Assembly (NCBI GenBank): GCA_008330645.1
Contig: VLTN01000044.1
Span: forward strand, 243,114 to 307,113
Direction: 5' to 3'
Length of the DNA: 64,000 nt
DNA from: Cafeteria roenbergensis
Lineage: Eukaryota; Sar; Bigyra; Bicosoecida; Cafeteriaceae
Under the pieces are notes generated by a model. It was not told the DNA's origin, ran no database searches, and worked only from the letters and a program-made list of their open reading frames with translations. Below are positions 25,600 to 47,900 of this stretch, in pieces; the first letter of the stretch is position 1; each line of letters begins with the position of its first letter. Made by a program: the position numbers and the translations under genes.

Positions 25600-28500
25600 T
25601 CACTGGTCGCTGTCGCTGTCTGCGACGCCCAACAGCGCGTCGACAAGCTGGGCACCCGTCACGGGCTTGCGGAGCATGCCGTCCGCGCCCGCCCGCAGGG
25701 CCTCCGCCTCCCCCTCCGCCGTCACGTCGCCCGTCACCAGCCACAGCCGAGGCTCCCACCACGGCGCCCGGGCCTTGCCCAGCGCCACGATCGCGCGGAT
25801 CGCGTCCACGCCCCCCAGCACGGGCATGCTCCCGTCCACCAGCACGCCGTCCGGCAGGCCCCACACGGCGCCCGTCTCCGCCCCGCTCGTCCCCGGCGGA
25901 CCGCCCCCCGCCTCGAGCTCCGCCTCGCCGGCGTCGAGCGCCGCCTCCACGGCCGCCACCAGCTGCGCCCCGTCGGCGAAGGTGCGCGTTGCGGCGCCGC
26001 TGCGGCGCACCACGAGCGCCGACACGCGGGCCGTCGTGGGGTCGTCGTCGGCGACCCACACCCGCCACCCGGACAGCGGCGCGTTGGCCCGGTTCGTCGG
26101 CGAGCGAGCGCTTAGCACGGCCGCTGAGCTACGACGACGTTGCCCCATGGAATTCGACGCGCTGCGGCGGGGCTCGGCTGCTGGAGAGCTGGGGGACGCA
26201 GGCACCGAACGCACAAGCGCGCTCACGCTGGTTGCGATGGCCCCGCTCCGCGACGCCATGGTCGCCCGCGGTGACACCGCACCGCGGCCTTCGCTCCGCC
26301 GCAAGTGCTCCGCCCACGACTCAGACGACCGACGGACCACCGTCACTGGCACGCGCAGCCACAGGTGCGCCCCGCGGTCCTCCCCCCCGCTCGCAAGCCC
26401 GGCCTCGCCCTCCAGCGACGACGCAACCCCGCGCACAACAGCGAGGCGGAGCCCCGACGACCCCAGACGCAGGCTCTCGTCACCGTGGCGGAGCCGCCCG
26501 AACGGGTCGAACGGGTCCCCGTCCAGCTCCGCCGCCGAGTACCCCTGCCCCGTGAACCGCACCTCCACGCACAACACCCCCCGCTCCGACCCGCGCATGC
26601 CCCGGCGCGGCGCCGACTGCTGCGACCAGCCCAGACCCGACAGCGCGCGCCGGCCCGTCGACACCGACACCGACACGCACACGTGCCCGGGCCTCGAGCG
26701 GGAGCTGCGCGTGGCGGCCGCGTACGTGCCGATGGCCACCATGGCGACAGCCGCCTGCATGACGCGGGCGTGGTCCGTGTACACCGCCCACGGGAAGGCA
26801 GCTCCGGGCGCATCATGGGTCGCCTCGGACGCGCCAGAGCCCGCCGAACCGACTCCAAAGCATGACGGCGACGGCGACGGCGCCGCCGGCCCGGAAGGCG
26901 GCCGCTCCGCCCACGAGCTGCGGACCGCCCTCAGCCGGCCCTGCGGGGTAGAGGAGCCCGCCACGTCCGAGCCTCCTGGTGTTGCCGGGTTGCTGGGCGG
27001 GAGGGCGACGCGGTGCGGGTTGGATCTGCTCGTGAACCACGCTGGGGGCTGCCGCCCACGGCAGTCCTCGCAGCCGCAGCCGGGCGAGTGGCCCCGTGAC
27101 CTGCGAGCAGTGGGGGATGCGAGAACGCCTGCGAACCGCTTGGGAGGGTTGCCCTCTGGGCCCTCGCGATTGCTTGGCTGCGTCGGCACTGCGGTGCTGC
27201 CGCTGGCCTTGCTCGCACTCGCAACGTGAGGCTCCCTCGTCCTGCCATCGCCCTTGACTGCAATATCATCGACCTGGACAACTGGGCCCGACGACGGCGC
27301 TTCGAGCACGGGCTCATCCGGCGGCGCTGGGCCACCACCGCCCAGGCTCCTTGGCGAGGGTCCCCACGGCCCCCGTGGCGAGGTTGCGGGGCTCCGCGCG
27401 CCCGCGTGACACCCCCACACGTCCAGCACCAACGCCGCCGCCCGACGATGCCTCGCAAAGTGCCCGCACAGACGCGCCGCCCACGAGTCGGCGATGGCGC
27501 CCCACGACATGAGCGACGACGAGTCCTTCGCGGACAGCCGCTGCCACAGCAGCAAGTCGTCCAGCTCCTGCTTGGACGACTCGAGCGCGATCTGGAGGTC
27601 CCGCATGATGGAGGACGAGCTGAGCGTGGGGGTGCAGCTGCCACTCGACGGCACGCTGCCGAAATCGCCGTCTGCCATGGAGGGCACCTCAACAACGGGC
27701 CCATACAGAGCGGAGTGTTGCATCCTGAAGCTTGCTCGCCCGGCAGATGGCAGCAGCCCTACTGCTGGCACCGCGAACCCTTCGGGGGGCGTCGCGCAAG
27801 CACCAGCAGCAGACGATGCTCCCCGCTCCTCTCCCATGCCTGAGACGGAGAGCTGAACTCCTCGCTGTTGGCTCGGGGACCCATATGCACCACGGCGAAC
27901 CTTCATCTGGACGTGGCTGCTCTTGGATACCGACGACCCGCCGCGAGCGCTGGCCGGCTCGTTGGCGAGCGCCGCGTCGGCCTCCAGCACCGCCATGCAC
28001 AACACCGCCGCGTTCAACGGACCCCGCGCGTGGTGGCTCACGTAGGTGACGGCACGCACCAGAGCGTCGGACTGCATGCGCGACTGCTCCGACCGGACGT
28101 GCGCCACGCTCGACTGCAGCTCCAGCACCATCGACACCGATGGAATGAACGCAAATGCCAGGATGCAGAGCGCTATCACAGCGCCCAAGGTCCCCACGCT
28201 GACCACGCGGTCCCGCAGAGCCTGCGACCCCGACAGGTCGAGGCCGTCGGGCCACGTGCTCCCCGCCGGCGCCGCCGCCTGAACCGCGCGCCACTCGTCG
28301 CACCCGCGGGTGTCGATGCCAGACGCCACCAGCGCGACCATCAGCGCCATGAACACGCACAGGCTCAGCACCGACAGCCCCAGCTCGATCGCGGCGCGCG
28401 TTGAGTCGCCGCAGCGAGGCTTGGTCGAGCCAGGCACGTCCTCAGGGCGAAGTGCTCCAGCTGGCTCGGAGCCCGCCGCGGTCGCTTCGCCACCTTGGCC

Positions 28501-29662
28501 GCAACAGCTGGATAAATTGCAACAGCGACTGTCGCCTTGAGCGACCCCGCCCGCGCCTCGCGACTCCGAAAGGGGAGACCACGGACTGCGGACCTTATCA
28601 GCAGCCCCGCCAGCACGCTCCGCGGCCGCTGTCGGTACATCCTCGCGGGCACTGCAGCAAGCCATCGCGGCGATACCCCCAATGTGCAGGGCGAAATGGC
28701 ACGCTGCAGCAGTCCACGCGATGGCTGGGCTGGCAAGGCCGCCTGCAGACGCAACGACTCCCAGCACGCCCATGGTCACCGCGGGGAGCGTGCTGCTACA
28801 CCCACCACGGGAGCACGAGCACAGCACCCCGCGGCAAAATGCCAGCCGGGAGCCGCAGACCACGTCCTCGTCAGACTTGGGGCTCGCGCTGCCGATAATC
28901 AGAGCGGCAATGGCCGCGAGGAAAGCGCGCGCGACGGTCGCCGCAGGAGCGTACAGGCAGTTCCCAGGTACGAAGGCCATGGGCACGAGCCGTCTGTCAG
29001 AGCTGGTGATGGGCGGCCACATGAGAACTTGGCAACATGTCAGGACGCCGAAGGCAAAAATACTGCGTTTCGAAGCGAACCACGGTCGTCGCGACGGACG
29101 CTCAAGGCCGCACGCCGCGGGCCTGGGATGCAGCTGGGACTGCCAACTTCCACGGTGAAGTGGCTGCATCGCGGCGCTGGTTGCGGGGCGATTGCATTAA
29201 GGGCACGGCTGAGCAGGCTCACCGGCTGCGCAGCGTCCGCGTAATGGCCGACGGCGAGGCCAGCGAGAGCATCAGCACCAGCGCCGCCACGCCCAGCGAT
29301 CCCACCACGGCAGACTCAGAGAGGCCAACACTTCGGTTCACGGCGCGCGAGGCGACTTCGATGGCGCCGATGGCTGAGGCGTTGCGTGCAAGCCGGAGCT
29401 CGGTGAAGCGAGTCTGCGCGCTTGTCACCAGGCCCCCTCGGGCTCGGAGCCATGGAGGCACGAACTGGGTCCTGGCTCCGACCACAAAGCACACTGGGAA
29501 GCAGACCGCAACCGCGATCAGGACGGAGAACCTGCTCCAGTGACAACTCAAGGCCTTGCCGTCCAGGCTGGGTCTCGCACTCGTCCTTGCCAGCGCGACG
29601 GCTTGGTGCTCGCCTTCTCGGGATAGCACCAGGCTGGGCGGCGACTCGTTGCGAGAGAGCAT
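25600..29662 (-). CDS. HK1: membrane hybrid histidine kinase with degenerate ATP-binding domain
   Basis: Two exons (29662-29223, 29062-25600) give 1,300 residues. The N-terminal part has about eight hydrophobic segments, two in exon 1. A signalling helix leads to the H box TYVSHHARGPLNAAVLCMAV (His near residue 490). Linkers are disordered. The catalytic-domain remnant is present (YTDHARVMQAAVAM, VRFTGQGYSAAELD, DPFGRLRHGDESLRLGSSGL), but the N-box Asn residues, the Asp of DxGxG and the second Gly of GLGL are lost, so ATP binding is doubtful. The C-terminal receiver is intact: acidic pair in VADDDP, phospho-Asp in LVDGSMP (about 1222), Thr in VTGDVT and Lys in RKPVT. Role inferred: sensor or phosphorelay partner that must be phosphorylated by another kinase. 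Start chosen at ATG 29662 because it aligns with HK2/HK3 starts. The end TGAQLVDALLGVADSDSDQ differs from its paralogues. Confidence 0.85.
29063..29222 (-). other. HK1 intron
   Basis: Donor CAGCCG|GTGAGC, acceptor CGAAACGCAG|TATTTT, 160 nt, phase 2 within an Arg codon just after the second hydrophobic segment (TLRS-R-IFAFGVL). The same position and phase are seen in all five kinases. Confidence 0.88.
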
Positions 29663-30000
29663 CCCGTGCCGCGCTGCCGCGATGGGGCCGCAGTTGGCCG
29701 GCACCCGGCGGAGTGCGAGGAAACGGGCTGGCAGATGGGCGGAAACGACTCGGTCGGAGTGAGTTCGGCCATCGACAACATTTGAGTCGTTGCTGCGGAT
29801 CAGCCGCACTTGACTCGCCCACGTCGCGTGTGCCAGTGCTGTGGTCAGAGAGAGTGAGCTGTTCTCGCAATACCGGGCCTACGGCGCGCTTGGAATGGCC
29901 TACAGCACGCACGGCGACGCCACTGGCCGCTGCTACCGTGCGCTCCGTCGGGCAACGCGCGCCCCGCATGGGCAGCGCGCATCGCCCGGAGCGAAACATC
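29663..30000. promoter_or_regulatory. HK1 upstream region / HK2 3' flank
   Basis: 338 bp between the HK2 stop and the HK1 ATG. About 105 bp next to HK2 (from 29895) is near-identical to the equivalent flank of HK3 and HK4 and belongs to the tandem unit; the remainder is unique to HK1. No box is recognised. Confidence 0.35.
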
Positions 30001-33000
30001 TCACCCAACGGCGCCCAACAAGCTCAACACCAGGCGCTCGCCCGTCACGGGCTTGCGGAGCATGCCGTCCGCGCCCGCCCGCAGGGCCTCCGCCTCCCCC
30101 TCCGCCGTCACGTCGCCCGTCACCAGCCACAGCCGAGGCTCCCACCACGGCGCCCGGGCCTTGCCCAGAGCCACGATCGCGCGGATCGCGTCCACGCCCC
30201 CCAGCACGGGCATGCTCCCGTCCACCAGCACGCCGTCCGGCAGGCCCCACACGGCGCCCGTCTCCGCCCCGCTCGTCCCCGGCGGACCGCCCCCCGCCTC
30301 GAGCTCCGCCTCGCCGGCGTCGAGCGCCGCCTCCACGGCCGCCACCAGCTGCGCCCCGTCGGCGAAGGTGCGCGTGGCGGCGCCGCTGCGGCGCACCACG
30401 AGCGCCGACACGCGGGCCGTCGTGGGGTCGTCGTCGGCGACCCACACCCGCCACCCGGACAGCGGCGCGTTGGCCCGGTTCGTCGGCAAGCGACTACTCC
30501 TCGCCGGCGCAAGGCGGAGAGCGGCCCCCGGCGCAAGGCCCACCGCCCTTCCCAGCCGTCCCGATGCTGCTCGGGCACCGCGGCCTCCGGGGGACTTCGC
30601 CGCTGTCCACGCCCGTGCAACCGGCTCCACAGTCCCAGCCGCGGGTGCGGCTTTGCGCGACCCCGAGCCAAGCCCAGCATCATCCGCCGCACACTGGCGC
30701 CGCAAGTGCTCCGCCCACGACTCAGACGACCGACGGACCACCGTCACTGGCACGCGCAGCCACAGGTGCGCCCCGCAGTCCTCCCCCCCGCTCGCAAGCC
30801 CGGCCTCGCCCTCCAGCGACGACGCAACCCCGCGCACCACAGCGAGGCGGAGCCCCGACGACCCCAGACGCAGGCTCTCGTCACCGTGGCGGAGCCGCCC
30901 GAACGGATCGAACGGGTCCCCGTCCAGCTCCGCCGCCGAGTACCCCTGCCCCGTGAACCGCACCTCCACGCACAACACCCCCCGCTCCGACCCGCGCATG
31001 CCCCGGCGCGGCGCCGACTGCTGCGACCAGCCCAGACCCGACAGCGCGCGCCGGCCCGTCGACACCGACACCGACACGCACACGTGCCCGGGCCTCGAGC
31101 GGGAGCTGCGCGTGGCGGCCGCGTACGTGCCGATGGCCACCATGGCGACAGCCGCCTGCATGACGCGGGCGTGGTCCGTGTACACCGCCCACGGGAAGGC
31201 AGCTCCGGGCGCATCATGGGTCGCCTCGGACGCGCCAGAGCCCGCCGAACCGACCCCAAAGCATGATGGCGACGGCGACGGCGACGGCGCCGCCGGCCCG
31301 GAAGGCGGCCGCTCCGCCCACGAGCTGCGGACCGCCCTCAGCCGGCCCTGCGGGGTAGAGGAGCCCGCCACGTCCGAGCCTCCTGGTGTTGCCGGGTTGC
31401 TGGGCGGGAGGGCGACGCGGTGCGGGTTGGATCTGCTCGCGGACCACGCTGGGGGCTGCCGCCCACGACAGTCCTCGCAGCCGCAGCCGGGCGAGTGGCC
31501 CCGCGACGGCCCTCTCGTCAGCAGCTGGCCGCTCAGCTGAAGCGGCTCTGCGGGAACAGAGCCCTTCGCCTCGTTCGCTTCGCCGAGCTCAACCGAATCA
31601 CGCATGCCCTCGCGAGCGCGGTCGCGAAGCGCCACAGCGGAAGCGTCGCCCTCCCGATGCCGGTGCGATGCCGCAGGAGACCTCCCCCTGCCCTCGTCCG
31701 AGCGCCGCGTCCCCTTCTGGCGCCCCTCTGACGACAATGCGGCGCCCCGCGTGCCCGCGTGACACCCCCACACGTCCAGCACCAACGCCGCCGCCCGACG
31801 GTGCCTCGCAAAGTGCCCGCACAGACGCGCCGCCCACGAGTCGGCGATGGCGCCCCACGACATGAGCGACGACGAGTCCTTCGCGGACAGCCGCTGCCAC
31901 AGCAGCAAGTCGTCCAGCTCCTGCTTGGACGACTCGAGCGCGATCTGGAGGTCCCGCATGATGGAGGACGAGCTGAGCGTGGGGGTGCAGCTGCCACTGT
32001 CGAGCTCATCCTCGCTTGCAAACGGCGCCTCGCCTGCCCGCGAGTAGCCATCCACAGACTGGCCGTGAGACGCGGACGGAGCAGGATGCTTGCCGCGCAC
32101 GTGGGCTGGGCGCTGGGGCATGGAGCACGCCGCGTCATCCTCCAGCACCGCCATGCACAGCACCGCCGCGTTCAACGGACCCCGCGCGTGGTGGCTCACG
32201 TACGTCATGGCGCGCACCAAAGCGTCGGACTGCATGCGCGACTGCTCCGACCGCACGTGCGCCACGCTCGACTGCAGCTCTAGCAGCATGGATACAGAGG
32301 CGATGAACGCAAAAGCCAGCGTGCAAACCCCAACTACCACGCTCACCGTCCCCACGCTGACCACGCGGTCCCGCAGAGCCTGCGACCCCGACAGGTCGAG
32401 GCCGTCGGGCCACGTGCTCCCCGCCGGCGCCGCCGCCTGAACCGCTCGCCACTCGTCGCACCCGCGGGTGTCGATGCCAGTCACCACCAGCGTGACCATC
32501 AGCGCCACGAACACGCACAGGCTCAGCACAGACAGCCCCAGCTCGATCGCGGCGCGCACAGAGTCGCCGCAGCGAGGCTTGGTCGAGCCAGAAGCGCGAG
32601 CCGGACTCGCGCGTCCAGCGTTCCCGAGGCCCACAGGGCGAGCACGCCCGGAGCAACAGCCGCGCCGTGGTGCAGAATCGACGGACCCTTGCTCGAGGAC
32701 GTGCGGCTTGGAGCTCTGCGTGGGAGGCTGGCCTCGCACGAGGCCGGTTGCGTGCGGAGCCTGCTCAGCCGGATGCACCGTCGCCCGAGCGCGAGACTCT
32801 TGCCGGCCGATGCAGCAGGCTGTCGCGACAAGGCCGCCAACGCGCAGCGCAAGATAGCACGCAGTTGCCGTCCAAGCAACCGCCGGACTCGTGAAACTGC
32901 CAGAGCACGCCATCAGCCCGAGGACAGAGAGTGTGGTCGCCGGCACCGCACTGTTCCACCCGCCTCGGGAGCACGAGCACGCTATCCCACGGCACCAGGC

Positions 33001-33833
33001 CAATCGCGTGCGGCAGATGACGTCTTCATCTGACTTGGGCCTCGACATGCCCACAATGAGCATTGCGATTCCGGTGAGGAACATTCGGGCTGTCATGGAC
33101 GACGGCGCAAACGAGCAGCTGCCGGGCACAAAAGGGACCGGGACAAGCTGTCGATCGGACGCCGTGAGGGGAGGCCAGATAGCTACGAAAGCCAGCGCCA
33201 CCACTCCGAAGGCGGTGATCCTGCGGGAGCGACGGGGCTTGCTCGGATGACGCCGCTGCAGTCAAACAGGTCTGGGCCGCGCTAGGGCGTATGCCCGGGT
33301 CCCGCCACGCCCTCGCAGCCCCCCGAGCGGGGCGCAACACCTGCCCGACCACCAGCATACCCATGCGTCTCGCTGCGTTGCCGGCTGCCAGCTCACCGGC
33401 CTCTCAATGTCGGGGTAAGGGCCCGCGATGAGGCAAAGGTCAAGATGAAAAGCAGGGCCGCGACAGCCAGCGAGCTGTACATCACAGCATCCACTTGGTG
33501 CACTGCACGGTCCATCGAACGCAAGGCCACTGCGATCGCCTCCCCCGCTGACGAATTGCGCCCCAGGCGAAGCTCGGTCAACCGCGCTTGCGCCAGGACC
33601 AGCATGTTCGACCTCGACCGCAGCCACCCCGGCATCGTCCCGCTCTTCACAATTGACACTGCAACGAGACCGTACGCAACCGCCATCACCGTGAGCACGG
33701 TGGCCCGCGTCCAGTGGCAGCTGCGCGGTTCAGCACAGTTGCGTCGCTGCCTGCTGCCCGCCGAGGCCCGAGCCGGAGCCTGAGCCTGATGCTCTTCGGC
33801 CTGAGCGAGAGCCAGGCCCGCCGGCAGGCTCAT
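30001..33833 (-). CDS. HK2: membrane hybrid histidine kinase with degenerate ATP-binding domain
   Basis: Two exons (33833-33397, 33220-30001), 1,218 residues. Same architecture as HK1: two hydrophobic segments in exon 1 (AVYGLVAVSI-type and AALLFILTFA), about six more in exon 2, H box YVSHHARGPLNA (His about 488), disordered linkers, degenerate catalytic remnant (about 820-980) and intact receiver (Asp about 1146 in LVDGSMPVLGG). Missing residues are those listed for HK1. Sequence is nearly identical to HK3 apart from scattered substitutions and an 18-bp difference in the linker before the receiver (RLAPARSSRLPTNRAN against RPASPTNRAN). ATG 33833 (MSLPAGLALAQAEEHQAQ) aligns with HK1; the ATG at 34112 would leave only 18 bp after the HK3 stop and is less likely. 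Confidence 0.85.
33221..33396 (-). other. HK2 intron
   Basis: Donor AGGCCG|GTGAGC, acceptor GCTCCCGCAG|GATCAC, 176 nt, phase 2 in the conserved Arg codon (TLRG-R-ITAFGVV). Confidence 0.9.
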
Positions 33834-34130
33834 GGCCGCCGGCAAGTCGGCCTGTCGCGGTCCTGGCGGCGAGTGCTCAGGCCTCTGCGTGGCGCCGTGT
33901 TGTCGTTGCTGTGGGCTTGGGAGTTGCTGGGACAGCAGAGCCTCGCCAAACTCGCTGCTGAGTGACGCGGCGAAAGAATTGCCCCACAAGAAGCCAGCAG
34001 GCTCGCCACTTGAGGCCACGCCCATCGGCCTACAGCACGCACGGCGACGCCACGGGCCGCTGCTACCGTGCGCTCCGTCGGGCAACGCGCGCCCCGCATG
34101 GGCAGCGCGCATCGCCCGGAGCGAAACATC

Positions 34131-37100
34131 TCACCCAGCGGCGCCCAACAAGCTCGACACCAGGCGCTCGCCCGTCACGGGCTTGCGGAGCATGCCGTCC
34201 GCGCCCGCCCGCAGGGCCTCCGCCTCCCCCTCCGCCGTCACGTCGCCCGTCACCAGCCACAGCCGAGGCTCCCACCACGGCGCCCGGGCCTTGCCCAGCG
34301 CCACGATCGCGCGGATCGCGTCCACGCCCCCCAGCACGGGCATGCTCCCGTCCACCAGCACGCCGTCCGGCAGGCCCCACACGGCGCCCGTCTCCGCCCC
34401 GCTCGTCCCCGGCGGACCGCCCCCCGCCTCGAGCTCCGCCTCGCCGGCGTCGAGCGCCGCCTCCACGGCCGCCACCAGCTGCGCCCCGTCGGCGAAGGTG
34501 CGCGTGGCGGCGCCACTGCGGCGCACCACGAGCGCCGACACGCGGGCTGACGTGGGGTCGTCGTCGGCGACCCACACCCGCCACCCGGACAGCGGCGCGT
34601 TGGCCCGGTTCGTCGGCGAGGCTGGCCGGAGAGCGGCCCCCGGCGCAAGGCCCGCCGCCCTTCCCAGCCGTCCCGATGCTGCTCGGCCACCGCGGCCTCC
34701 GGGGGACTTCGCCGCTGTCCACGCCCGTGCAACCGGCTCCACAGTCCCAGCCGCGGGTGCGGCTTTGCGCGACCCCGACCCAAGCCCAGCGCTATCCGCC
34801 GCACACTGGCGCCGCACGTGCTCCGCCCACGACTCAGACGACCGACGGACCACCGTCACTGGCACGCGCAGCCACAGGTGCGCCCCGCAGTCCTCCCCCC
34901 CGCTCGCAAGCCCGGCCTCGCCCTCCAGCGACGACGCAACCCCGCGCACCACAGCGAGGCGGAGCCCCGACGACCCCAGACGCAGGCTCTCGTCACCGTG
35001 GCGGAGCCGCCCGAACGGATCGAACGGGTCCCCGTCCAGCTCCGCCGCCGAGTACCCCTGCCCCGTGAACCGCACCTCCACGCACAACACCCCCCGCTCC
35101 GACCCGCGCATGCCCCGGCGCGGCGCCGACTGCTGCGACCAGCCCAGACCCGAAAGCGCGCGCCGGCCCGTCGACACCGACACCGACACGCACACGTGCC
35201 CGGGCCTCGAGCGGGAGCTGCGCGTGGCGGCCGCGTACGTGCCGATGGCCACCATGGCGACAGCCGCCTGCATGACGCGGGCGTGGTCCGTGTACACCGC
35301 CCACGGGAAGGCAGCTCCAGGCGCATCATGGGTCGCCTCGGACGCGCCAGAGCCCGCCGAACCGACCCCAAAGCATGATGGCGACGGCGAAGGCGACGGC
35401 GCCGCCGGGCCGGAAGGCGGCCGCTCCGCCCACGAGCTGCGGACCGCCCTCAGCCGGCCCTGCGGGGTAGAGGAGTCCGCCACGTCCGAGCCTCCCGGCG
35501 TTGCCGGGTTGCTGGGCGGGAGGGCGACGCGGTGCGGGTTGGATCTGCTCGCGGACCACGCTGGGGGCTGCCGCCCACGACAGTCCTCGCAGCCGCAGCC
35601 GGGCGAGTGGCCCCGCGACGGCCCTCTCGTCAGCAGCTGGCCGCTCAGTTGAAGCGGCTCTGCGGGAACAGAGCCCTTCGCCTCGTTCGCTTCGCCGAGC
35701 CCAACCGAATCACGCATGCCCTCGAGAGCGCGGTCGCGAAGCGCCACAGCGGAAGCGTCGCCCTCCCGATGCCGGTGCGATGCCGCAGGAGACCTCCCCC
35801 TGCCCTCGTCCGAACGCCGCGTCCCCTCCTGGCGCCCCTCTGACGACAATGCGGCGCCCCGCGTGCCCGCGTGACACCCCCACACGTCCAGCACCAACGC
35901 CGCCGCCCGACGGTGCCTCGCAAAGTGCCCGCACAGACGCGCCGCCCACGAGTCGGCGATGGCGCCCCACGACATGAGCGACGACGAGTCCTTCGCGGAC
36001 AGCCGCTGCCACAGCAGCAAGTCGTCCAGCTCCTGCTTGGACGACTCGAGCGCGATCTGGAGGTCCCGCATGATGGAGGACGAGCTGAGCGTGGGGGTGC
36101 AGCTGCCACTGTCGAGCTCATCCTCGCTTGCAAACGGCGCCTCGCCTGCCCGCGAGTAGCCATCCACAGACTGGCCATGAGACGCGGACGGAGCAGGATG
36201 CTTGCCGCGCACGTGGGCTGGGCGCTGGGGCATGGAGCACGCCGCGTCATCCTCCAGCACCGCCATGCACAGCACCGCCGCGTTCAACGGACCCCGCGCG
36301 TGGTGGCTCACGTACGTCATGGCGCGCACCAAAGCGTCGGACTGCATGCGCGACTGCTCCGACCGCACGTGCGCCATGCTCGAATGCAGCTCCAGCAGCA
36401 TCAAAACGGAGACAATGAACGCGAACGTCAGCGTGCAAACTCCCAATACCACGCTCACCGTCCCCACGCTGACCACGCGGTCCCGCAGAGCCTGCGACCC
36501 CGACAGGTCGAGGCCGTCGGGCCACGTGCTCCCCGCCGGCGCCGCCGCCTGAACCGCTCGCCACTCGTCGCACCCGCGGGTGTCGATGCCAGTCACCACC
36601 AGCGTGACCATCAGCGCCACGAACACGCACAGGCTCAGCACAGACAGCCCCAGCTCGATCGCGGCGCGCACAGAGTCGCCGCAGCGAGGCTTGGTCGAGC
36701 CAGAAGCGCGAGCCGGACTCGCGCGCCCAGCGTTCCCGAGGCCCACAGGGCGAGCACGCCCGGAGCAACAGCCGCGCCGTGGTGCAGAATCGACGGACCC
36801 TTGCTCGGGGACGTCCGGCTTGGAGCTCTGCGTGGGAGGCTGGCCTCGCACGAGGCCGGTCGCGTGCGGAGCCTGCTCAGCCGGATGCACCGTCGCCCGA
36901 GCGCGAGACTCTTGCCGGCCGATGCAGCAGGCTGTCACTGCAATGCCGACGATGCGCAACGTGAAATGGCATGCAGCTGTCGTCCAAGCAACCGCCGGAC
37001 TCGTGAAACTGCCGGAGCTCGCCATCAGCCCAACGACAGACAGTGTGGTCGCCGGCACCGCACTGTTCCACCCGCCTCGGGAGCACGAGCACGCTATCCC

Positions 37101-37945
37101 ACGGCACCAGGCCAATCGCGTGCGGCAGATGACGTCTTCATCTGACTTGGGCCTCGACATGCCCACAACGAGCATTGCTGTGCCGGAGAGGAACATTCGG
37201 GCTGTCATGGACGACGGCGCAAACGAGCAGCTGCCGGGCACAAAAGGGACCGGGACAAGCTGTCGATCGGACGCCGTGAGGGGAGGCCAGATAGCTACGA
37301 AAGCCAGCGCCACCACTCCGAAGGCGGTGATCCTGCGGGAGCGACGGGGCTTGCTCGGATGACGCCGCTGCAGTCAAACAGGTCTGGGCCGCGCTAGGGC
37401 GTAAGCCCGGGTCCTGCCACGCCCTCGCAGCCCCCCGAGCGGGGCGCAACACCTGCCCGACCACCAGCATACCCATGCGTCTCGCTGCGTTGCCGGCTGC
37501 CAGCTCACCGGCTCCTCAATGTCGGGGTAAGGGCCCGCGATGAGGCAAAGGTCAAGATGAAAAGCAGGGCCGCGACAGCCAGCGAGCTGTACATCACAGC
37601 ATCCACTAGGTGCACTGCACGGTCCATCGAACGCAAGGCCACTGCGATCGCCTCCCCCGCTGACGAATTGCGCCCCAGGCGAAGCTCGGTCAACCGCGCT
37701 TGCGCCAGGACCAGCATGTTCGACCTCGACCGCAGCCACCCCGGCATCGTCCCGCTCTTCACAATTGACACTGCAACGAGACCGTACGCAACCGCCATCA
37801 CCGTGAGCACGGTGGCCCGCGTCCAGTGGCAGCTGCGCGGTTCAGCACAGTTGCGTCGCTGCCTGCTGCCCGCCGAGGCCCGAGCCGGAGCCTGAGCCTG
37901 ATGCTCTTCGGCCTGAGCGAGAGCCAGGCCCGCCGGCTGGCTCAT
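34131..37945 (-). CDS. HK3: membrane hybrid histidine kinase with degenerate ATP-binding domain
   Basis: Two exons (37945-37509, 37332-34131), 1,212 residues; every landmark of exon 1 and the intron sits exactly 4,112 bp from its HK2 counterpart. H box YVSHHARGPLNA (His about 488) and receiver Asp (about 1140) are kept, while the N box, G1 and G2 are degenerate in the same way as HK2. Differences from HK2 cluster in the membrane region (FAFIVSVLMLLELHSSMAHV against FAFIASVSMLLELQSSVAHV) and around CHFTLRIVGIAVTACC against CYLALRVGGLVATACC. The latter change brings HK3 closer to HK1, which suggests patchy conversion. Ligand unknown. Confidence 0.85.
37333..37508 (-). other. HK3 intron
   Basis: Same borders and length as the HK2 intron (GTGAGC ... 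CCCGCAG, 176 nt), phase 2, shifted by 4,112 bp. Confidence 0.9.
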
Positions 37946-38242
37946 GGCCGCCGGCAAGTCGGCCTGTCGCGGTCCTGATGGCGAGTGCTCAGGCCTCTGC
38001 GTGGCGCCGTGTTGTCGTTGCTGTGGGCTTGGGAGTTGCTGGGACAGCAGAGCCTCGCCAAACTCGCTGCTGAGTGACGCGGCGAAAGAATTGCCCCACA
38101 AGAAGCCAGCAGGCTCGCCACTTGAGGCCACGCCCATCGGCCTACAGCACGCACGGCGACGCCACGGGCCGCTGCTACCGTGCGCTCCGTCGGGCAACGC
38201 GCGCCCCGCATGGGCAGCGCGCATCGCCCGGAGCGAAACATC

Positions 38243-41200
38243 TCACCCAGCGGCGCCCAACAAGCTCGACACCAGGCGCTCGCCCGTCACGGGCTTGCGG
38301 AGCATGCCGTCCGCGCCCGCCCGCAGGGCCTCCGCCTCCCCCTCCGCCGTCACGTCGCCCGTCACCAGCCACAGCCGAGGCTCCCACCACGGCGCCCGGG
38401 CCTTGCCCAGCGCCACGATCGCGCGGATCGCGTCCACGCCCCCCAGCACGGGCATGCTCCCGTCCACCAGCACGCCGTCCGGCAGGCCCCACACGGCGCC
38501 CGTCTCCGCCCCGCTCGTCCCCGGCGGACCGCCCCCCGCCTCGAGCTCCGCCTCGCCGGCGTCGAGCGCCGCCTCCACGGCCGCCACCAGCTGCGCCCCG
38601 TCGGCGAAGGTGCGCGTGGCGGCGCCACTGCGGCGCACCACGAGCGCCGACACGCGGGCTGACGTGGGGTCGTCGTCGGCGACCCACACCCGCCACCCGG
38701 ACAGCGGCGCGTTGGCCCGGTTCGTCGGCGAGGCTGGCCGGAGAGCGGCCCCCGGCGCAAGGCCCGCCGCCCTTCCCAGCCGTCCCGATGCTGCTCGGGC
38801 ACCGCGGCCTCCGGGGGACTTCGCCGCTGTCCACGCCCGTGCAACCGGCTCCACAGTCCCAGCCGCGGGTGCGGCTTTGCGCGACCCCGACCCAAGCCCA
38901 GCGCTATCCGCCGCACACTGGCGCCGCACGTGCTCCGCCCACGACTCAGACGACCGACGGACCACCGTCACTGGCACGCGCAGCCACAGGTGCGCCCCGC
39001 AGTCCTCCCCCCCGCTCGCAAGCCCGGCCTCGCCCTCCAGCGACGACGCAACCCCGCGCACCACAGCGAGGCGGAGCCCCGACGACCCCAGACGCAGGCT
39101 CTCGTCACCGTGGCGGAGCCGCCCGAACGGATCGAACGGGTCCCCGTCCAGCTCCGCCGCCGAGTACCCCTGCCCCGTGAACCGCACCTCCACGCACAGC
39201 ACCCCCCGCTCCGACCCACGCATGCCCCGGCGCGGCGCCGACTGCTGCGACCAGCCCAGACCCGACAGCGCGCGCCGGCCCGTCGACACCGACACCGACA
39301 CGCACACGTGCCCGGGCCGCGAGCGGGAGCTGCGCGTGGCGGCCGCGTACGTGCCGATGGCCACCATGGCGACAGCCGCCTGCATGACGCGGGCGTGGTC
39401 CGTGTACACCGCCCACGGGAAGGCCGGCCCTGGTATGGCTGCGCCTGTGGAATACTGTCGTCGCGCCTGCAAGCTCGCTGCGCTTCCGCTCCCTGCCGTG
39501 GGAGTTGGCGACACCCTGGCAGGCATGTGCCAACATCCTGCACAGGTGTGCTGCTTGGTTGCCTTCGCTGCGTTGGTCGCCCACAGCTCGACTGCAACGG
39601 CTGATTGCGAACCGTCAGCCGCGCGTTGCTGCGGCTCTGGGTCTGGCATGTCCCACTTGCCGAGTGGGACATCGTTGCAGCACCCTTGGGTTGACAGCAC
39701 AAGGTCTGCGGCTAGTCTATGCCGGGAGAAGTGGCTGCAAAGTCTCTCCTCCCACGAAGCATCGAAGGTGGCCCAGGAGCGGATTGTGGTCGCTGTCTTT
39801 CGGAATGCGAGCCGCTGCCACAAGAGCAAATCGTCAAGCTCCTGTTTTGCCGACTCAAGCGCAATGTGAAGGTCCCGAAGGGTCGCCTGCGAGGATGGGG
39901 TAGCACTGTCAACGGCTGCTCCGTGGGGAAGCGCTCTGGAGTTCTCTGCGGGTGCGCCCGTGGTTTCGGAAACGTGGGCACAGTCCGTGACCGGTCTCCT
40001 TGGGTACTCGTCGGTGGCCTCGCTTGGCCACCTCGCTGGTAGCTTTTTGGCGGGAGCAACAGCTCCAAAGCCGAGGCCATTGGGATCGGCGCTCGGTGTT
40101 GGCGGCAGATGGCGGCAACCGTTGCGCTGGTCCTCCGCCTTGGAAACTGTGTTCATCTCCAGCAGGGTCATGCAAAGCACTGCTGCGTTGAGTGGCCCTC
40201 GCGCGTGGTGGCTGACATACGTGACTGCGCGCCCGAGCTTCTGGCCTTGGCTTCGAACGGCCTTGGCCTGCGTCGAGGCTAAGGTCGCCTGGAACTCGAG
40301 AAGCAGTGAGAGGGCTAGAAACACTCCTTGGTACGTCGTAAAAGTTGTGAACAGCAAGGTGAGGCGCGACACGTCTGTCAGTCGCTCCCTCTCCGGGGAT
40401 GGGATAGAAATGTCGATTCCTGCTGGCCATCGATGGGCTGGGTTCGTGACGGCGAGCTGCGCATCCCACGCCGCGCAGCCTTCGCTCTTGGAGGAGTAGT
40501 CCCCGAGCATCGCGAAGAACACGACTGTGATCCCAAAGCGGATTGCCACCAAGACCTGGTCCAGAACAACGGCTGAGCATGCCATCGTGTTCCGGTGCCG
40601 ACGGCGAGATACCCACGCCGGCTCGTCCGTCGACCATGCGCAGCATCGTCGCCCCCACGCAAACCAGGTCTCTCTTCCATCTGTAGGGAGCTCAAAAGTC
40701 GAGCGAATCCACCTGAGAGAGAGGCTGCTGAGCGCGACCACGACAGCCACAGACGCCCATGCCGAGCCAACCCGTCGCAGCCATCCAAACCCCAAAGCCT
40801 GCACCAGAGCAAAGTGCGCAGCGACCGCAACTGCTGACTTGGCACCGCCACGGGTGCAAACGCAACACGAGCAGCAGCGGCAGCAGCTTCCCCCGCTGCT
40901 GTACGGAAGGTCGTCAGACGAGGGCCACGCGAAGCCAACAACTGCCGTGCCCAACGACGCAATCACGGCCTGCATCACGATGAAGTAGTCGGCAAACGAG
41001 CAAGCGCCCGCGAAGAAGCCCATCGGAGTGAGCCACCGAGGCACGTCCATGAACAGTGGGGAGACAAGGAGCTCGCTGAGAACGACGAGGCCGCTGCTGA
41101 TCAGCCTGAGAAGCGCACGTGGAACGCTCGGGCCGCAAGCGACACACAGCGGGCCGTGGCGATTTGCCCGCACTGCGAGCCACGTTGGGGCGCCGCATGG

Positions 41201-41730
41201 CACAGAGCATCCCTCCCTGGCACATTGTGCGGTTTGGGGGCCCGCGCCGAAGCTTGGCGCCGCGGGTCAAAAGTCGCTTACCTTGCGCGCAGCGCTGGCT
41301 TGGCAGTGATTGGCGAACAGCTCAGCAGCGCCACAACGATCCCCACGACAGCCAAGGCGCCGGCGGTGAAGGTGAGCATAAGCACACGGCGCATCTGGGC
41401 ATCGGCTGCGGCAGCCGCATTCCCTGCAGCCACGGTGGCGTTGGGGCTGCCGACGATGGCCAGCACTTGCAGCGCCTCGTCCATGATCGTCAGCGGACTC
41501 GAGTCCATGCGTTGCCACGGCGAGCGCCGGCTCGCCCCCAAGGCAGTCCAGAGCCAGGCAAGGGCTACAAAGGAGGGCGCCGCAACGCTCAAGACGGCGC
41601 CCCGGCCACACTGAAGCTTGCTTGCAATGCCTGGGCCTTGCGTGCGGACTGACGTGACTCCGTGGCGATCAGTCGCTGCACACCCATCCCCATGGGAACT
41701 GAGGACGAGGAGTCGGTGCGAAGGCTGCAT
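38243..41730 (-). CDS. HK4: chimeric hybrid histidine kinase (unique sensor half, HK3-like C-terminal half)
   Basis: Two exons (41730-41282, 41105-38243), 1,103 residues. The sensor half is clearly diverged (for example SSGLVVLSELLVSPLFMDVP, SKSEGCAAWDAQLAVTNPAH) but keeps the multi-pass layout and the H box RAVTYVSHHARGPLNAAVLC (His about 449). From GPAFPWAVYTDHARV to the stop it is almost identical to HK3 at the DNA level, and homology ends abruptly at about 39425. The ATP-binding remnant is therefore degenerate like HK3 and the receiver is intact (Asp about 1031). It has a shorter linker between H box and catalytic remnant, with a Cys/His-containing segment (NAAKATKQHTCAGCWHMPAR). ATG 41730 chosen; the in-frame ATG at 41967 overlaps the HK5 start codon on the other strand and is less plausible. 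Confidence 0.82.
41106..41281 (-). other. HK4 intron
   Basis: Donor GCAAG|GTAAGC, acceptor GCGCTTCTCAG|GCTGATC, 176 nt, phase 2 in an Arg codon (ALRA-R-LISSGLVV). Homologous in position to the other kinases although the sequence is unrelated. Confidence 0.88.
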
Positions 41731-41965
41731 CGCCTGCCAGAATCGCCGACTGGCCTGTGCCCCCGGGAGGCGCCCGCCAGGGGGCCGGGCCAGGCGCAGC
41801 TCACAGGAGCAGCGTGGCACGGCAGCAAAGAACCGCCGCGAGGCAGAGCAGCTGGGGCAGTGTGTCGCCTTTTCGCGATGCCGGCTTCTTTCAAGGGGGC
41901 GCGCTGGCCGCCACTGCTCGGCAACGGGGCTCGCGGCACCGCTGCAGGCGAGGCAAAATTCACGC
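41731..41965. promoter_or_regulatory. Short bidirectional promoter region between HK4 and HK5
   Basis: 235 bp between the chosen HK4 ATG (minus) and HK5 ATG (plus). Both genes must be transcribed from it if the starts are right, which fits co-regulation of the cluster. The HK5 ATG lies in a palindromic GCATGC that also creates a minus-strand ATG in the HK4 frame. Confidence 0.45.
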
Positions 41966-44900
41966 ATGCCGTCTCGGACCGTTCGCCTGTTGACGGGCAG
42001 CTCGTCGTGGCCCCGGCGCGAGATCCGGCCGGGCGCTTCGGGCACGGGCGAGGCCGCTTCTGTTGCGCAAGCGCTTCTCTCGCCGGCGACCGTCGCGTTT
42101 CTCGTGGTGCTGCTGGCCGCCTTCGTGGCCGGCCTGGTGCCCCCGCCCCCGGACGGGGGCTGGACAGTTGTCCCCGACAATGTGTTCACCGCGGTGCAGA
42201 ACTGGCTGGCGGAGGCCCGTGACGTCGAGGCCATTTTGCCGGCCGCCCGGGAAGCGCAGGGCTTCTCGCTCTCCCGCTCCGTGGCCGTGGCTGTGATGCT
42301 GGTTAGCGCGCTCGTGGCCGTGCTTCACAGCGCAGCGTTCGCCGGGCAGGCAGCCCCGGAGACCCGTTCACGGTGAGCAGCCCGGCGCCGTCGTTCGGCT
42401 GTCGCGAGAGCGCGTGCGAGCCGTCTCGCGCGCTGCTTTCCTGCTGCCGGCTTGGCCCGCCCCGACCACGGCCGCTGGCGTCCAAGCCAGACGCTGCTGA
42501 ACCAGGGGTTGAGGCGCCTGCTGCCCTGTGGTTCTCCCAGTCGCAAGCGCCGCGACGCCTGGTCGCGACGAGGGGGAGGCACGCGAAAAGGCGTTGTTGC
42601 GCGCTGCCCCCGCCGTCGCGCTCGCTGCCCGCAGAATGCTCGTCTTCCTGGGCCTCCTTGTGGTTGTCCTGTCGGACCCAGCCATCTGGGTGCGCCCAGT
42701 GTCCTTGACTCGCCTGTCAAGCGCGCCCGGGTCGTGTCTGTGGGTTACTCGCGCTGACTTGCGGCTGGCGGTCCTCATGTCCATCGCGGCGCTGTACTTC
42801 GCCCGGACTCCCGAGCGCCAGGCCGAGGGCGAGGACTCTGAGCTCATTAGCAGTCCCAAGACGTGCGGCTCCAGGCTCAGGGCACGCGCGATGGAGTGGG
42901 CAGGGGCGGTGGGGATCCTGGCAGTCGGGCTTGGCGCCATCGCCTGGAGCTTCCGCCGCGAGACTGGAGAGATTGCCGAGGTCCGCGGGAAGCAGGCCAT
43001 ACCCGCCGCCATTGCCCTGATGTTCGTGGTCGCGCTCCTGGTCTGGAGGCGCACTGTGGTCCAGCACATCACCAAGGCGGTTTGCAAGCAGCAGTCCCTC
43101 GAGCACCGCTTGCGCGTCCTCCACGTCGTCCTCGCCCTCGTCCCCGTGGTTGGCGTCATGGTCATAGTCTTCCTGCAACCAAGCGCCGACGGGTGCCCCG
43201 CCTGGTCATCCACGCCTGCCACAGAGTTCACGTCCCTCCCGGCGCCGCCTGCCAACGCCTCGGCCGGCTGGCCGTTCGGCATGCACCCCGGCAACGTGGA
43301 TGCCCGGAACCGGGTCTTCGACGCCCTCATCGTAATGCAGTACGCTGCGATCGTCAACTGCGGCGTGGTCATCGTCCTGTCCTTCTCGCACATCCTGCGC
43401 GTGCAGATGGAGCTGACTGCGACCCTCGAGGCGGATGAGCTCACCGCCGCTGAGGGACTCCGAATCACAATCGGGTCAGTGTCCCACGAAGCGCGCGGCC
43501 CCCTCAACGCGGCAATGCTCAGCCTGGAGCTGCTCGACGCCCCCGGGAACAGCCCCGGCCAGACTCCCGACCACGACGCTCTCCGCCCCCATGCGCCAGT
43601 CGACAGCGCGACCCGCGTGGCCCTGCTGGCAGAGCTCCGGCAGGCCGTGCTGTCCTCGAAACGTCACCTGGACGACCTGCTGCTGTGGGAGAACGCAGGC
43701 GCGGCCACGGCCAGCAGCACCGCGTCGCCGGCCTGGGGGGGATTCGGGCCCGACGCGGTCCAGCTCGTGCGTACCTTCCACGGTGCCTGCGAGAGCGCTG
43801 GCATCACCCTCGTGGTCCACACGGCGCCTCCGGCGCGCTTCGCGGACAGCGGCAGCCGCAACACCGCCCGCTCGAACCATAACTCCACGGGCCGCTCGCC
43901 CGGGCCCGCCCCGCACGGGCCCCGAGCGGCCAAAGACGCAGCCGCCGGCCAGGGCGCGCCGCCCGGCACCGCCTCCAAGGACCGCACGGCCACCCTGGCC
44001 TCCGGGAGCACCGCAGGCCGGCTGCTGGACGGCGCCGCGACGGCAGCCCCGGAGCGGGCTGCGGGGCCCTCCGGGCGGGCCGGCAGCTCGACGCTCCCCT
44101 CAGGAGCTGCCGCGCGTGCGACAGCAGCAGCCAGGGGCTACAGCCGGACTGCCTCCTCCCCGAGCTCTGCCACTGACGCAGCCTCTGCGGCGACGAGCCT
44201 TCGCGCGGAGGCCGGCGCCCCCACGCGCTTCCCCCAGCATGCTGGCTCGGACGGGCGCGCAATGCCAGCTGCCGCGACGGACCTCACGGAGAGCGCGCGC
44301 GACCACATCCCGCTCACCCACCGCGGGGCACCCCTGTCCACCCCGACCTCGTCAGCCGGCCTCGCCGCCGCCGAGGCGTCCAAGCCGACGGGCAGCCTCT
44401 CCCTTCGCAGCGCCTCGGTCAACACCTCGGCGCCCGGAGGGGGCGTGGTCCCCGCCGCCCTTGACGCCACGTCGGCTCCCGCCGGTGCCCACATATCGTC
44501 CGCTCCCTCCCTCATCGCCTCGCGGGACGGCCGGGTGCGTCGCCACTACCAGCGCACGTCGGACGGAACCGCGCAGGCGGGCCGCTCCCGCAGCAGCAGC
44601 GCCAGCAGCGGCGAGTCTACCGTGCCCCCCTTGCGCCCCACCGCCTCCTTTTCCCGCCCGTTCGCGACCCGCGGTGGCGGTGGTGGCGGTGGCGGTGGTG
44701 GCGGCGGCGGCGGCGCTGTCAAGCCCGGCACGCCCTCGGGCGTCACGGGCAGCCGCGCTTCCGACATGACCAGCGCGAGCCGCGTCAGCCCGGCCCCGCG
44801 CTACTTTGAGTCGGTAGAGCCGGCGCAGGAGGCCCTGGCGCGGAGCGCCACCCTGCACAGCTCCGACGTGGTGCCTCCCGGACAAGCCACCGCGGACGCG

Positions 44901-47900
44901 GCCGCCGCAGCGGGGCGGGCCGGCGCCTCTGCCAGCGTCTCCGGAATCCCAGTCCATTCTCAGTCCGAGTCCGGCGTCCGAAGCGTTGCCTCGACCGCTT
45001 CCGCAGGGCCCACCGGCTGCTGTCCCTTGGGCATGTCAGCGGCCGAGGGAGCCCGGGCCGACGCCCGCGCCGCGGCCGCCCTCGCCGCCGCCAACCAGCG
45101 CGAGCGCGAGCTGAGCCGCCTCTTCCGCCGCATGGACGAGTGGGACGTGTTCACCGACCACACGCTCCTCACTGCAGCGGCTGCGAACAGCATCAGCAAC
45201 GCCGTCAAGCACTGCCCGGAGGGCTCCGGCCGCATCGTCGTCACGGCCGCTGTCGCCCCCGGCGAGGAGGCGCTCGCGCTCTCGGGCCTCCCGCTCCCCG
45301 TCGGCTGGGCAGAGCTGCAGGCGGAGCACTCCCGCATGGTGGCCGACTACGAGGCGCAGCTGCAGATCCACCACCAGCTGCGGATGCACGGCGGAGGAGG
45401 CGTCGGCCCCGACAGCTCCACGCTGCGACGGCGGCGAGGAGCCAGCAGCCAGCAGCCCCTCATCGGGTCGTCCCCGGCGGGCGGGCGCGGGGCCTCCATC
45501 GCGACTCCTGCGCCCACCCCAACGGGGCCAGGGGTCGCCGCCGACGCGGCGTCGCCCGCCTCCCCCCGCGCCCGGGCAGCCACACTCCAGGGAGTGACGT
45601 CAGGCTCCGACGGCGTGGCCGGCGCCCGGGACACGGCGCCGAATTCCCTCGCCCGGATTCCAGGCCGTGACTACAGCCACAGCCGCAACCGCAGCCGCCG
45701 CCGCGCCTCCTCCTCCTCCTCCGACTCCAACCCCTCCTCCATTTCCGCCGCCCCCGCTCTGCCTCCACCCCCAGCCCCCCTCGTGCTCGGCGTGGTGCAA
45801 ATCGAGGTGTTCGACAACGGCCAAGGCATCCCCGCGGCCATGCTCGCGGGAGGCGGCCTCTTCTCGCCATTCGCGCGCCTCAGAGACGACGACGAGTCCA
45901 GGCGGATGACCTCCTCGGGCCTCGGCCTCTCAATCGTCCGGCGGAGCATCGTTGACGCGCTCAGAGGCGTGGTCGGCCTTGCGTCGGTGGAGGGCCGCGG
46001 CACCGTTGCCTACGCCAGGTTCCCTGTCGTCCTCCGCAAGGCCGCCGACGTCCCGCAAGCCTCTCTGCCGGCGTCTCTCAGCGGTTTCCCAAGCAGCTTC
46101 GCCGGACCCGCGGCCGAGCAAGACGCAGCCGCAGCCGCAGCCATCGGCAGCGGCAGAGGGCCCGCCGCCTCTGGGTCGCGCGGCCGCGGCGCCTTGCTGC
46201 GAGGCGCGGGCTCTGACATCGGCGCGTCCCGCGCAGACATTCCCCTCGGCATCCTGGCGGCCCAGATGGCGCGGGAGGAGCAGAGCGCTGGTGCCGCCGG
46301 CTCTGCTGCAGGCGGCCCTGGCCCGGGACCTGCAGAGGCTGCGGCTGCATCGAACGGCGCAGCACGCGATCCCCGCATCACAGGGACTGGCAGAGCCCTC
46401 GTCACAGTCGGTGGCTCGGCCGGGCGGCAGGAGCCAGCGAAGCAGCTTCACCTGGCAACGTCGCGGTCAGCTGACGACGCCCCCGCGCAGGTGCCGGGCG
46501 TGGACACGGCAGCCGTTGCGGACGGGGGGCGGGGCAGGCGGCAGCGCGATCGCGATCGCGTCCCCCGGCGAGAGGTGCGGCGCGCCGCTGCTGCGGGGAT
46601 CGCGGGGGTTCAGGGCGCGACGGCGGCGGCGGCAGCAGCAGCAGCAGCGGCAGCAGCGGCTGCGGCAGCAGAAAGTGCTGCCACAGATGCGGCCACGACG
46701 GCTCCAGCTGCCTCAGGCGGCAGGCCACGAGACAGAGGGCGTGGGGGCCAGCCCGCCACCACGCCGGGCGGCGGGATCGACTCGATGTCTGCGCTCACCC
46801 CGGCAGCAGTCGAGGCTGGCTCGTTCAGCGACAGCAAGTCGTCACCGGGCACGAGCTCGCCCTCAGCCGGCCTGTCCGCCGCCCCTGCGGCCACCGCGCA
46901 GTCTGCCGGCAAGGGCCGGGCTCGAGGGAGGGTTTCCAGTGCGCGTGTGTCTCCTGAGCCAGGCGATTCCCAAGAGCACCACCCGCCGCACGCCCCGTCC
47001 CGCGCGGAGGGCGTGGCGGCGGCGGGGGCTTCTGAGCTGGAGCAGGGTGGTGGCAGAGGCGCAGGGACGGTGCCCGAAGATGGAGGCGAGGGCGGGGCAG
47101 CTGGTAGGGCGGGCGCCTCAGAGGCGGGCAGGCCGAGGCGAAGGCAGCAGAGGCCGGGCCGCGAGGACAGGCGGGCGGCGCGACGCGCAGGCAAGGCCGG
47201 CGCCGGTTCGGCAGCCACTGCTGGCGCAAGTGCAGGTGGCAACGACGATGGTGACAACGATGGCGAAGGCGCCGATGCGGGTGCCGCCTCTCGCCGAGGC
47301 GGCGGGTCTGGGTCGGGAGAGGACTGTGGGGCTCAGGCGGGGGCGCCGGGGGGGAGCGCGCATGGACCGGCCGCCTCCTCAGCTGAGAGCGCTGGTGCCG
47401 ACGACAAGCCGCTCGACGCCCGGGCCGCTCGCGAGGCCCGCCGCATCGCCCGCCGAGCAGAGCGCGAGGCGGCCAAGCAGGAGGCCGCGGCGGCAGCTGC
47501 AGCCGCAGCAGCGTCTGCGGCGCCCAGCAGCGGCAAGGGCACAGCGAGGGGCTCCCACGCCTCGCACTCCAGCGCAGCGGGGGCAGGGACTGCCCCGGTG
47601 GCGACCGCCGCCCCCCAACCCATTCGCGGCGTCGTTCCCTCGCTGCGCGGAAAAGTGGCCTTCGTGGTCGACGACGAGCGCATCAACCGCACGATGCTTT
47701 CGGCCCTGCTGCGAAGGTGGGGGCTCGAGGTGCGCTCCTTCGAGGACGGCCTCAAGCTCATCAACGCGCTCACAGTGGCCGCGCAGTCCTCGGCCCCGGC
47801 CGCGACCGCGGCCCTCGAGTCCGGCCCGGCCACGGCCGAAGCTGCAGCATGGGCCACATCGCAGGCAGCGGCCGCTGGGGCGGCAGTAGCTGCTGCCGAC

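Follow-up and report, generated by a model that had tools for sequence, protein, structure and literature searches.

The window analysed here is a 64,000-nucleotide stretch of contig VLTN01000044.1 of Cafeteria roenbergensis (hereafter C44), with a G+C content of 70.5%. On its reverse strand lie four hybrid histidine kinase genes, HK1 to HK4, whose catalytic and ATP-binding (CA) domain is degenerate, and on its forward strand a canonical hybrid kinase, HK5, the divergent neighbour of HK4. The features are listed below; the upstream exons are open reading frames that end at a GT donor-like site, with putative splicing to the main exon.

25600..29169, reverse: HK1 main exon, with a transmembrane (TM) region, the dimerisation and histidine phosphotransfer (DHp) domain with SHHARGPLN, degenerate CA domain and receiver (motif positions, Pfam)
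26344-26784, reverse: HK1 catalytic remnant (equivalent of the HK4 remnant)
29219..29809, reverse: HK1 likely upstream exon, two TM-like segments
30001..33204, reverse: HK2 main exon (motif positions, Pfam)
30745-31185, reverse: HK2 catalytic remnant (equivalent of the HK4 remnant)
33393..34112, reverse: HK2 likely upstream exon, two TM-like segments
34131..37316, reverse: HK3 main exon (motif positions, Pfam)
34857-35297, reverse: HK3 catalytic remnant (equivalent of the HK4 remnant; structure modelled)
37505..38224, reverse: HK3 likely upstream exon, two TM-like segments
38243..41203, reverse: HK4 main exon, nearly identical to HK1-3 in CA and receiver and divergent from them in sensor and DHp (motif positions, Pfam, paralogue comparison)
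38969..39409, reverse: HK4 catalytic remnant, VYTDHAR ... WLRVPV (motif coordinates)
41278..42234, reverse: HK4 likely upstream exon, two TM-like segments
42528..48476, forward: HK5, canonical hybrid kinase (motifs, Pfam)

Residues lost and kept in HK1-HK4

In HK1 to HK4, in that order and always on the reverse strand, SHHARGPLN starts at 28038, 32196, 36308 and 40213, the N-box equivalent QAAVAMVAIGTYAAAT at 26757, 31158, 35270 and 39382, RFTGQG at 26559, 30960, 35072 and 39184, and SGLRL at 26457, 30858, 34970 and 39082, whereas HK5 reads SHEARGPL, NSISNAVKH, DNGQG and SGLGL. As read from the alignment, the two Asn of the HK5 N box are replaced by Ala and Ile, its Lys by Tyr and its His by Ala, the Asp of G1 by Phe, and GLGL by GLRL, both Gly of G1 and the outer residues of G2 being retained. 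The N-box part of this alignment rests on a shared TD start and on MAFFT alignments, the hhalign match of the remnants to canonical CA domains (probability 98.7) spanning 86 columns from G1 onward only. HATPase_c (Pfam) scored 16.9-18.8 bits in HK1-HK4, under the curated cut-off of 26.4, and 54.2 bits in HK5; besides this sub-threshold match, Response_reg was the only Pfam family in the four main exons. The initial annotation, which had described an N box without Asn, FTGQG and GLRL in HK1-HK4 beside an ATP site kept in HK5, was thus correct, and the same holds for the receiver residues that it reported as retained, since the motifs ADDD, VDGSMP, LVTGD and KPV, which supply the acidic pair, phospho-Asp, Thr and Lys, occur in all four proteins. 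Misreading of the catalytic region through an intron or frameshift was considered and rejected, because the region forms a single open frame in HK1-HK4 and identical residues recur in six paralogues.

The H box, also annotated as kept, keeps the phospho-His and RGPLN and has lost the acid next to them. The position after the phospho-His (H+1) is His in HK1-HK4 and Glu in HK5, as it is in 27 of the 46 genes whose H box was read, HK5 among them (the number may be 44, since the near-identical pairs C6b/C141 and C10/C110 may be haplotype copies). In the four HisKA proteins tested in the report cited, this acid was needed for kinase and not for phosphatase activity (PMC3510030). With the acid gone besides the ATP site, HK1-HK4 lack both halves of the autokinase, so that the loss described as selective for the ATP site extends beyond it, although the ATP-site losses themselves and the retention of both phosphorylation sites stand. 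A classical phosphatase role through Thr or Asn four residues after the His was also discarded, the H+4 residue of HK1-HK4 being Gly; this Gly is in itself uninformative, as HK5 has it too.

A conserved clade without an ATP site

A search of the genome (36.3 Mb, 167 contigs) with the remnant recovered ten genes spread over four loci: C44 carries four of them, C38 three (80-81% identity to the query), C70 two (43-45%) and C8 one (48%). All ten, here called clade A, show HH[AST]RGPLN and GLRL, have an aromatic residue where G1 normally has its Asp, and lack the N-box Asn. The phospho-His and the His at H+1 are found in every one of them and an intact receiver signature in nine; of the features of active HisKA kinases, the H+1 acid occurs in none of the ten, and neither do the N box, the G1 Asp and the central Gly of G2. 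Clade A is monophyletic, with support of 100/100, in a 46-gene tree from which the trait columns had been removed. Left out of this tree were C36, C23, C20 and C21, in which no H box was recovered; C40:140666 was set aside as what we take to be a PDK-like protein.

Since six paralogues on three other contigs show the same residue losses, these go beyond chance. Each of the four pseudokinases of the initial annotation does carry the losses, but their catalytic remnants are 99-100% identical, and HK1-HK4 accordingly count as one observation; four independent losses of the ATP site were rejected on the same ground, the remnants being homogenised. No relatives of the clade A remnant were confirmed among 18 pattern matches in viral contigs or 25 in prokaryote contigs. 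Clade A was likewise absent among the 40 HATPase_c matches listed genome-wide (39 of 78 candidates scored), and counts of histidine kinases based on HATPase_c can miss genes of this type.

Between the C44 and C38 arrays the ratio of replacement to synonymous change (dN/dS) was 0.32-0.33 in CA and 0.16-0.17 in the receiver, ratios which cover recent time, since the low synonymous divergence (dS) of CA between arrays (~0.36, against ~0.8 in the receiver and at least 0.86 in DHp) suggests some exchange between them. For the segment from G1 to G2 the ratio was 0.27 (Fisher P = 3e-4 for synonymous exceeding replacement change), within the range of 0.10-0.41 found for nine canonical pairs. Invariant columns over the four clade A lineages amounted to 36/77 (47%) from G1 to the end of CA, 12/27 in the N-box helix, 23/49 in DHp helix 2, 34/110 (31%) in the receiver and 18/187 in the sensor region; the string GLRLAV.RGVA does not vary among the clade representatives. 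In canonical kinases, compared as three sets of four, the part from G1 to the end of CA gave 34-39/81 (42-48%). The ATP-less domain of clade A is therefore as conserved as a canonical CA domain. An AlphaFold2 (AF2) model of the HK3 remnant, built on an alignment that included canonical relatives, reached a mean pLDDT of 85.8 and a pTM of 0.82, with a single segment (103-111) below 50. On selection, one of the checks proposed in the initial annotation, the result supports it, both CA remnant and receiver being under purifying and not relaxed selection. Taken together, dN/dS, invariance over four lineages and the AF2 model indicate a remnant that was rebuilt and kept, and is not decaying. The domain thus combines a recognisable HATPase fold with lost residues and purifying selection, as expected of a pseudo-histidine kinase.

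A second degenerate group, clade B (support 86/75), comprises C13, C44b, C44c, C9 and four genes on C28, and shows Gly, Gln, Ala, Gly and Arg in place of the H+1 acid. The CA invariance of four of its genes was 13/70. The C28 genes are tandem receptor kinases in which Met replaces the phospho-His (SMRSRGPLN) and Phe the second Asn of the N box, G1 being kept. Among the clade B genes, an intact receiver could be read in C13, C44c and three of those on C28, and that of C44b is known from a Pfam match; the frame of C28d ends just past CA, and no C9 receiver was found in the stretch read. Degenerate genes thus number 18 of the 46 with an H box read, namely the ten of clade A and eight more, four of which lack the phospho-His. 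Because the C28 genes keep RGPLN without the phospho-His, conservation of RGPLN alone is no evidence for phosphorylation, and greater weight falls on the retention of the His throughout the ten genes of clade A.

Over the 41 genes in which both positions could be scored (the N boxes of C64b, C64c, C64d, C26b and C42 were unread), the H+1 acid is absent from all 17 genes without the second N-box Asn and from two of the 24 with it, C44b (Gln) and C26c (Ser). These counts represent few events: the tree requires three changes of the acid, and as a clade uniting A and B is not rejected (p-AU 0.397), parallel loss in the two clades is not established and was dropped as a proven fact. The C26 kinase with Ser after its phospho-His shows a frame change in the N-box region, which suggests an intron.

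The tandem copies of clade A form three arrays with differing sensors and near-identical CA and receiver:

C44, window 25600-39424
C38, 95-107k
C70, 31-38k

Of the six neighbour pairs in these arrays, five had a sensor dS of 0.66-1.96 and the sixth, HK2/HK3, one of 0.10, and CA and receiver dS did not exceed 0.05 in any array neighbour pair compared. In all three arrays the DNA switches from diverged to identical ~30-120 bases upstream of the CA domain, the recent HK2/HK3 pair, alike throughout, being the exception; the boundary comparison was ungapped, so that linker insertions can sharpen the edge, while the dS values of sensor and DHp are unaffected. Judged by these sequence comparisons, the tandem copies are homogenised over CA and receiver. 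The canonical C40b and C40c show zero differences in the CA segment compared, and since at least one canonical pair is alike in CA, homogenisation is perhaps a habit of the family and not a mark of the pseudokinases.

With regard to gene structure, HK1-HK4 probably extend past their main exons through the upstream exon, recognised as open reading frames of 590-960 bases with TM segments called by simple hydropathy. The proposed two-exon layout fits the 1.67-1.89 introns per gene given for Cafeteria roenbergensis in the source cited (PMC6972860). Near the 3' end of HK1, at 23162-24769 of the window (reverse strand), lies a pyridine nucleotide-disulphide oxidoreductase (Pfam).

Possible roles and partners of the ATP-less kinases

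From the residues, most likely no clade A kinase can autophosphorylate, and HK1-HK4 are probably non-catalytic partners in receptor signalling and not broken remains. We propose that the predicted fold of the CA domain is retained around a rebuilt nucleotide pocket, with an aromatic residue for the adenine-binding Asp, Arg for the central Gly of G2 and no N-box Asn, and that this domain is joined to a DHp domain without the acid that phosphorylation from ATP would need. HK1-HK4 might dimerise or cluster through DHp with canonical kinases such as HK5, and the receiver Asp could be loaded by the phospho-His of a canonical kinase or by a histidine phosphotransfer (HPt) protein. The retained His would at most swap phosphate with an Asp, in the manner of Spo0B or ChpT, and the conserved CA remnant may be used for partner docking or allostery in place of ATP binding. 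Entry of phosphate at the receiver appears likelier than at the His, given that a kinase acting in trans probably needs the acid on the accepting chain; ATP-derived phosphorylation of the clade A His, be it through the CA domain of the same protein or that of a partner, is unlikely on this account. A receiver-loaded subunit is further favoured by a receiver dN/dS half that of the CA remnant and by the receivers kept in three C28 genes that lack the His. For the whole of this proposal, non-catalytic receptor subunits whose receiver takes its phosphate from a canonical kinase or HPt protein, we estimate an about even chance.

Candidate partners exist at part of the loci. Pseudokinase and canonical kinase are divergent, head-to-head neighbours at two of the four, HK4/HK5 on C44 and A8/C8can on C8; HK5 and C8can are sisters (100/100), as expected if an ancestral pseudo/canonical pair was duplicated. 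An HPt candidate, possibly a phosphorelay HPt of this genome, lies on C7 at 54236-54466 (reverse strand) with the motif AHAVKGAAATV. In the related Cafeteria burkhardae, histidine kinase and receiver domains are reported as enriched among genes upregulated in stationary phase (PMC7852580).

Several observations weigh against a receiver-loaded subunit. A38_1 stops before its receiver, and no receiver remnant was seen in its vicinity; A38_3 is interrupted between DHp and CA by ~540 bases, either a new intron or a disrupting insertion. Neither C38 nor C70 yielded a canonical kinase (one search scored 39 of 78 candidates, the other 46 of 46), which limits the pairing to two of four loci, and the C7 candidate scores 22.3 bits against a Pfam cut-off of 24.6. 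Loss of the H+1 acid would be no requirement of a phosphotransferase if Spo0B, ChpT or PhyT keep one, and it is not confined to members without an ATP site, C26c having an intact CA domain and Ser at H+1; a single loss of the acid, shared by clades A and B, is not rejected. Finally, the canonical relatives in the AF2 alignment may have pulled the HK3 model to the family fold.

The initial annotation saw HK1-HK4 as phosphorelay platforms phosphorylated in trans, that is, the CA domain of HK5 would phosphorylate their His from ATP and the phosphate would then pass to their own receiver. The His present in all clade A genes, though same-family C28 genes have lost it, and the head-to-head pairs on C44 and C8 agree with such a scheme, but the replacement by His, in ten of ten, of an acid reported as specific to kinase activity (PMC3510030) makes it rather unlikely. 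Clade A proteins could also modulate canonical kinases or phosphorylated receivers in a DivL-like or dominant-negative way, no phosphate passing through them. This would suit A38_1 and the greater invariance of CA remnant and DHp helix 2 than of the receiver, and DivL itself offers a precedent (PMC4211667); the receiver residues of nine genes and the lower dN/dS of the receiver than of the CA remnant speak against it, and we regard it as doubtful. The invariant GLRLAV.RGVA and the remaining G1 glycines might instead reflect unusual binding of a nucleotide or other ligand, or Ser/Thr kinase activity as described in vitro for subfamily-2 ethylene receptors (PMC3611092), which is improbable with N-box Asn, Lys and His, G1 Asp and central G2 Gly all lost. 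Decay of tandem duplicates, which would account for A38_1 and A38_3, is hardly credible in view of the long open frames of the other eight genes, the dN/dS of 0.16-0.33 over receiver and CA, and the 47% invariance over four lineages.

Beyond receiver loading, we tentatively suggest that the ATP domain of clade A might have become a new docking or ligand-reading module (DHAR...QAAVA, DPF.PF, GLRLAV.RGVA.SL.GEAG). About 18 of the 46 kinases could then belong to a receptor/co-receptor system, as non-catalytic phosphate carriers or readers loaded by active ones, in which variable sensors are combined with a homogenised output cassette.

Comparison with known systems

The best-known pseudo-histidine kinases are a few bacterial proteins and the plant ethylene receptors. 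As a kind they are known; new here are the size of the clade, the joint loss of acid and ATP site, and the conservation of the ATP-less domain. No description of these genes was found in the titles and abstract openings of the papers listed on Cafeteria histidine kinases, pseudo- or degenerate kinases and stramenopile hybrids. A natural set of this sort, with canonical relatives in one genome, allows one to ask what a dead CA domain does and whether the receiver of a hybrid kinase obtains its phosphate in trans.

Within this genome HK1-HK4 can be compared with the canonical hybrids HK5, C8can, C40 and C45, which have the same order of H box, CA and receiver and keep H-E, the second N-box Asn, the G1 Asp and GLGL, whereas HK1-HK4 do not. 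HK5 and clade A also have in common an N-terminal part that is hydrophobic and contains the motif C..W...WP.G. Among plants, the subfamily-2 ethylene receptors ETR2 and EIN4 combine a diverged kinase domain without essential residues with an intact receiver; like HK1-HK4 they are membrane receptors beside active kin, those of subfamily 1, and EIN4 keeps the phospho-His (PMC3611092). For diverged receptors of monocots with a retained receiver, the review cited predicts something similar (PMC3611092). HK1-HK4 differ in having also lost the H+1 acid, and ethylene-receptor and GAF families (Pfam) were found neither in the main exons of HK1-HK4 nor in the upstream exons of HK1, HK2 and HK4, the latter giving no Pfam match at all.

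Degenerate kinases that are established as phosphotransferases, namely Spo0B, ChpT and PhyT, resemble HK1-HK4 in joining a phospho-His-bearing DHp domain to a degenerate ATPase domain, and for ChpT no autophosphorylation from ATP is reported in the sources cited (PMC5898713, PMC3433190). HK1-HK4 in addition carry a receiver, none being described there for Spo0B, ChpT or PhyT (PMC5898713, PMC3433190), and the lid of ChpT, as described, is restructured into extra helix turns. DivL of Caulobacter is another case of a kinase fold reused without catalysis (PMC4211667), with Tyr in place of the phospho-His that HK1-HK4 keep. The Caulobacter hybrid kinase CCNA_03265, reported to lack the conserved His and to keep the receiver Asp (PMC11481889), is comparable to the C28 genes, whereas HK1-HK4 present the reverse arrangement, keeping the His and losing the ATP site.

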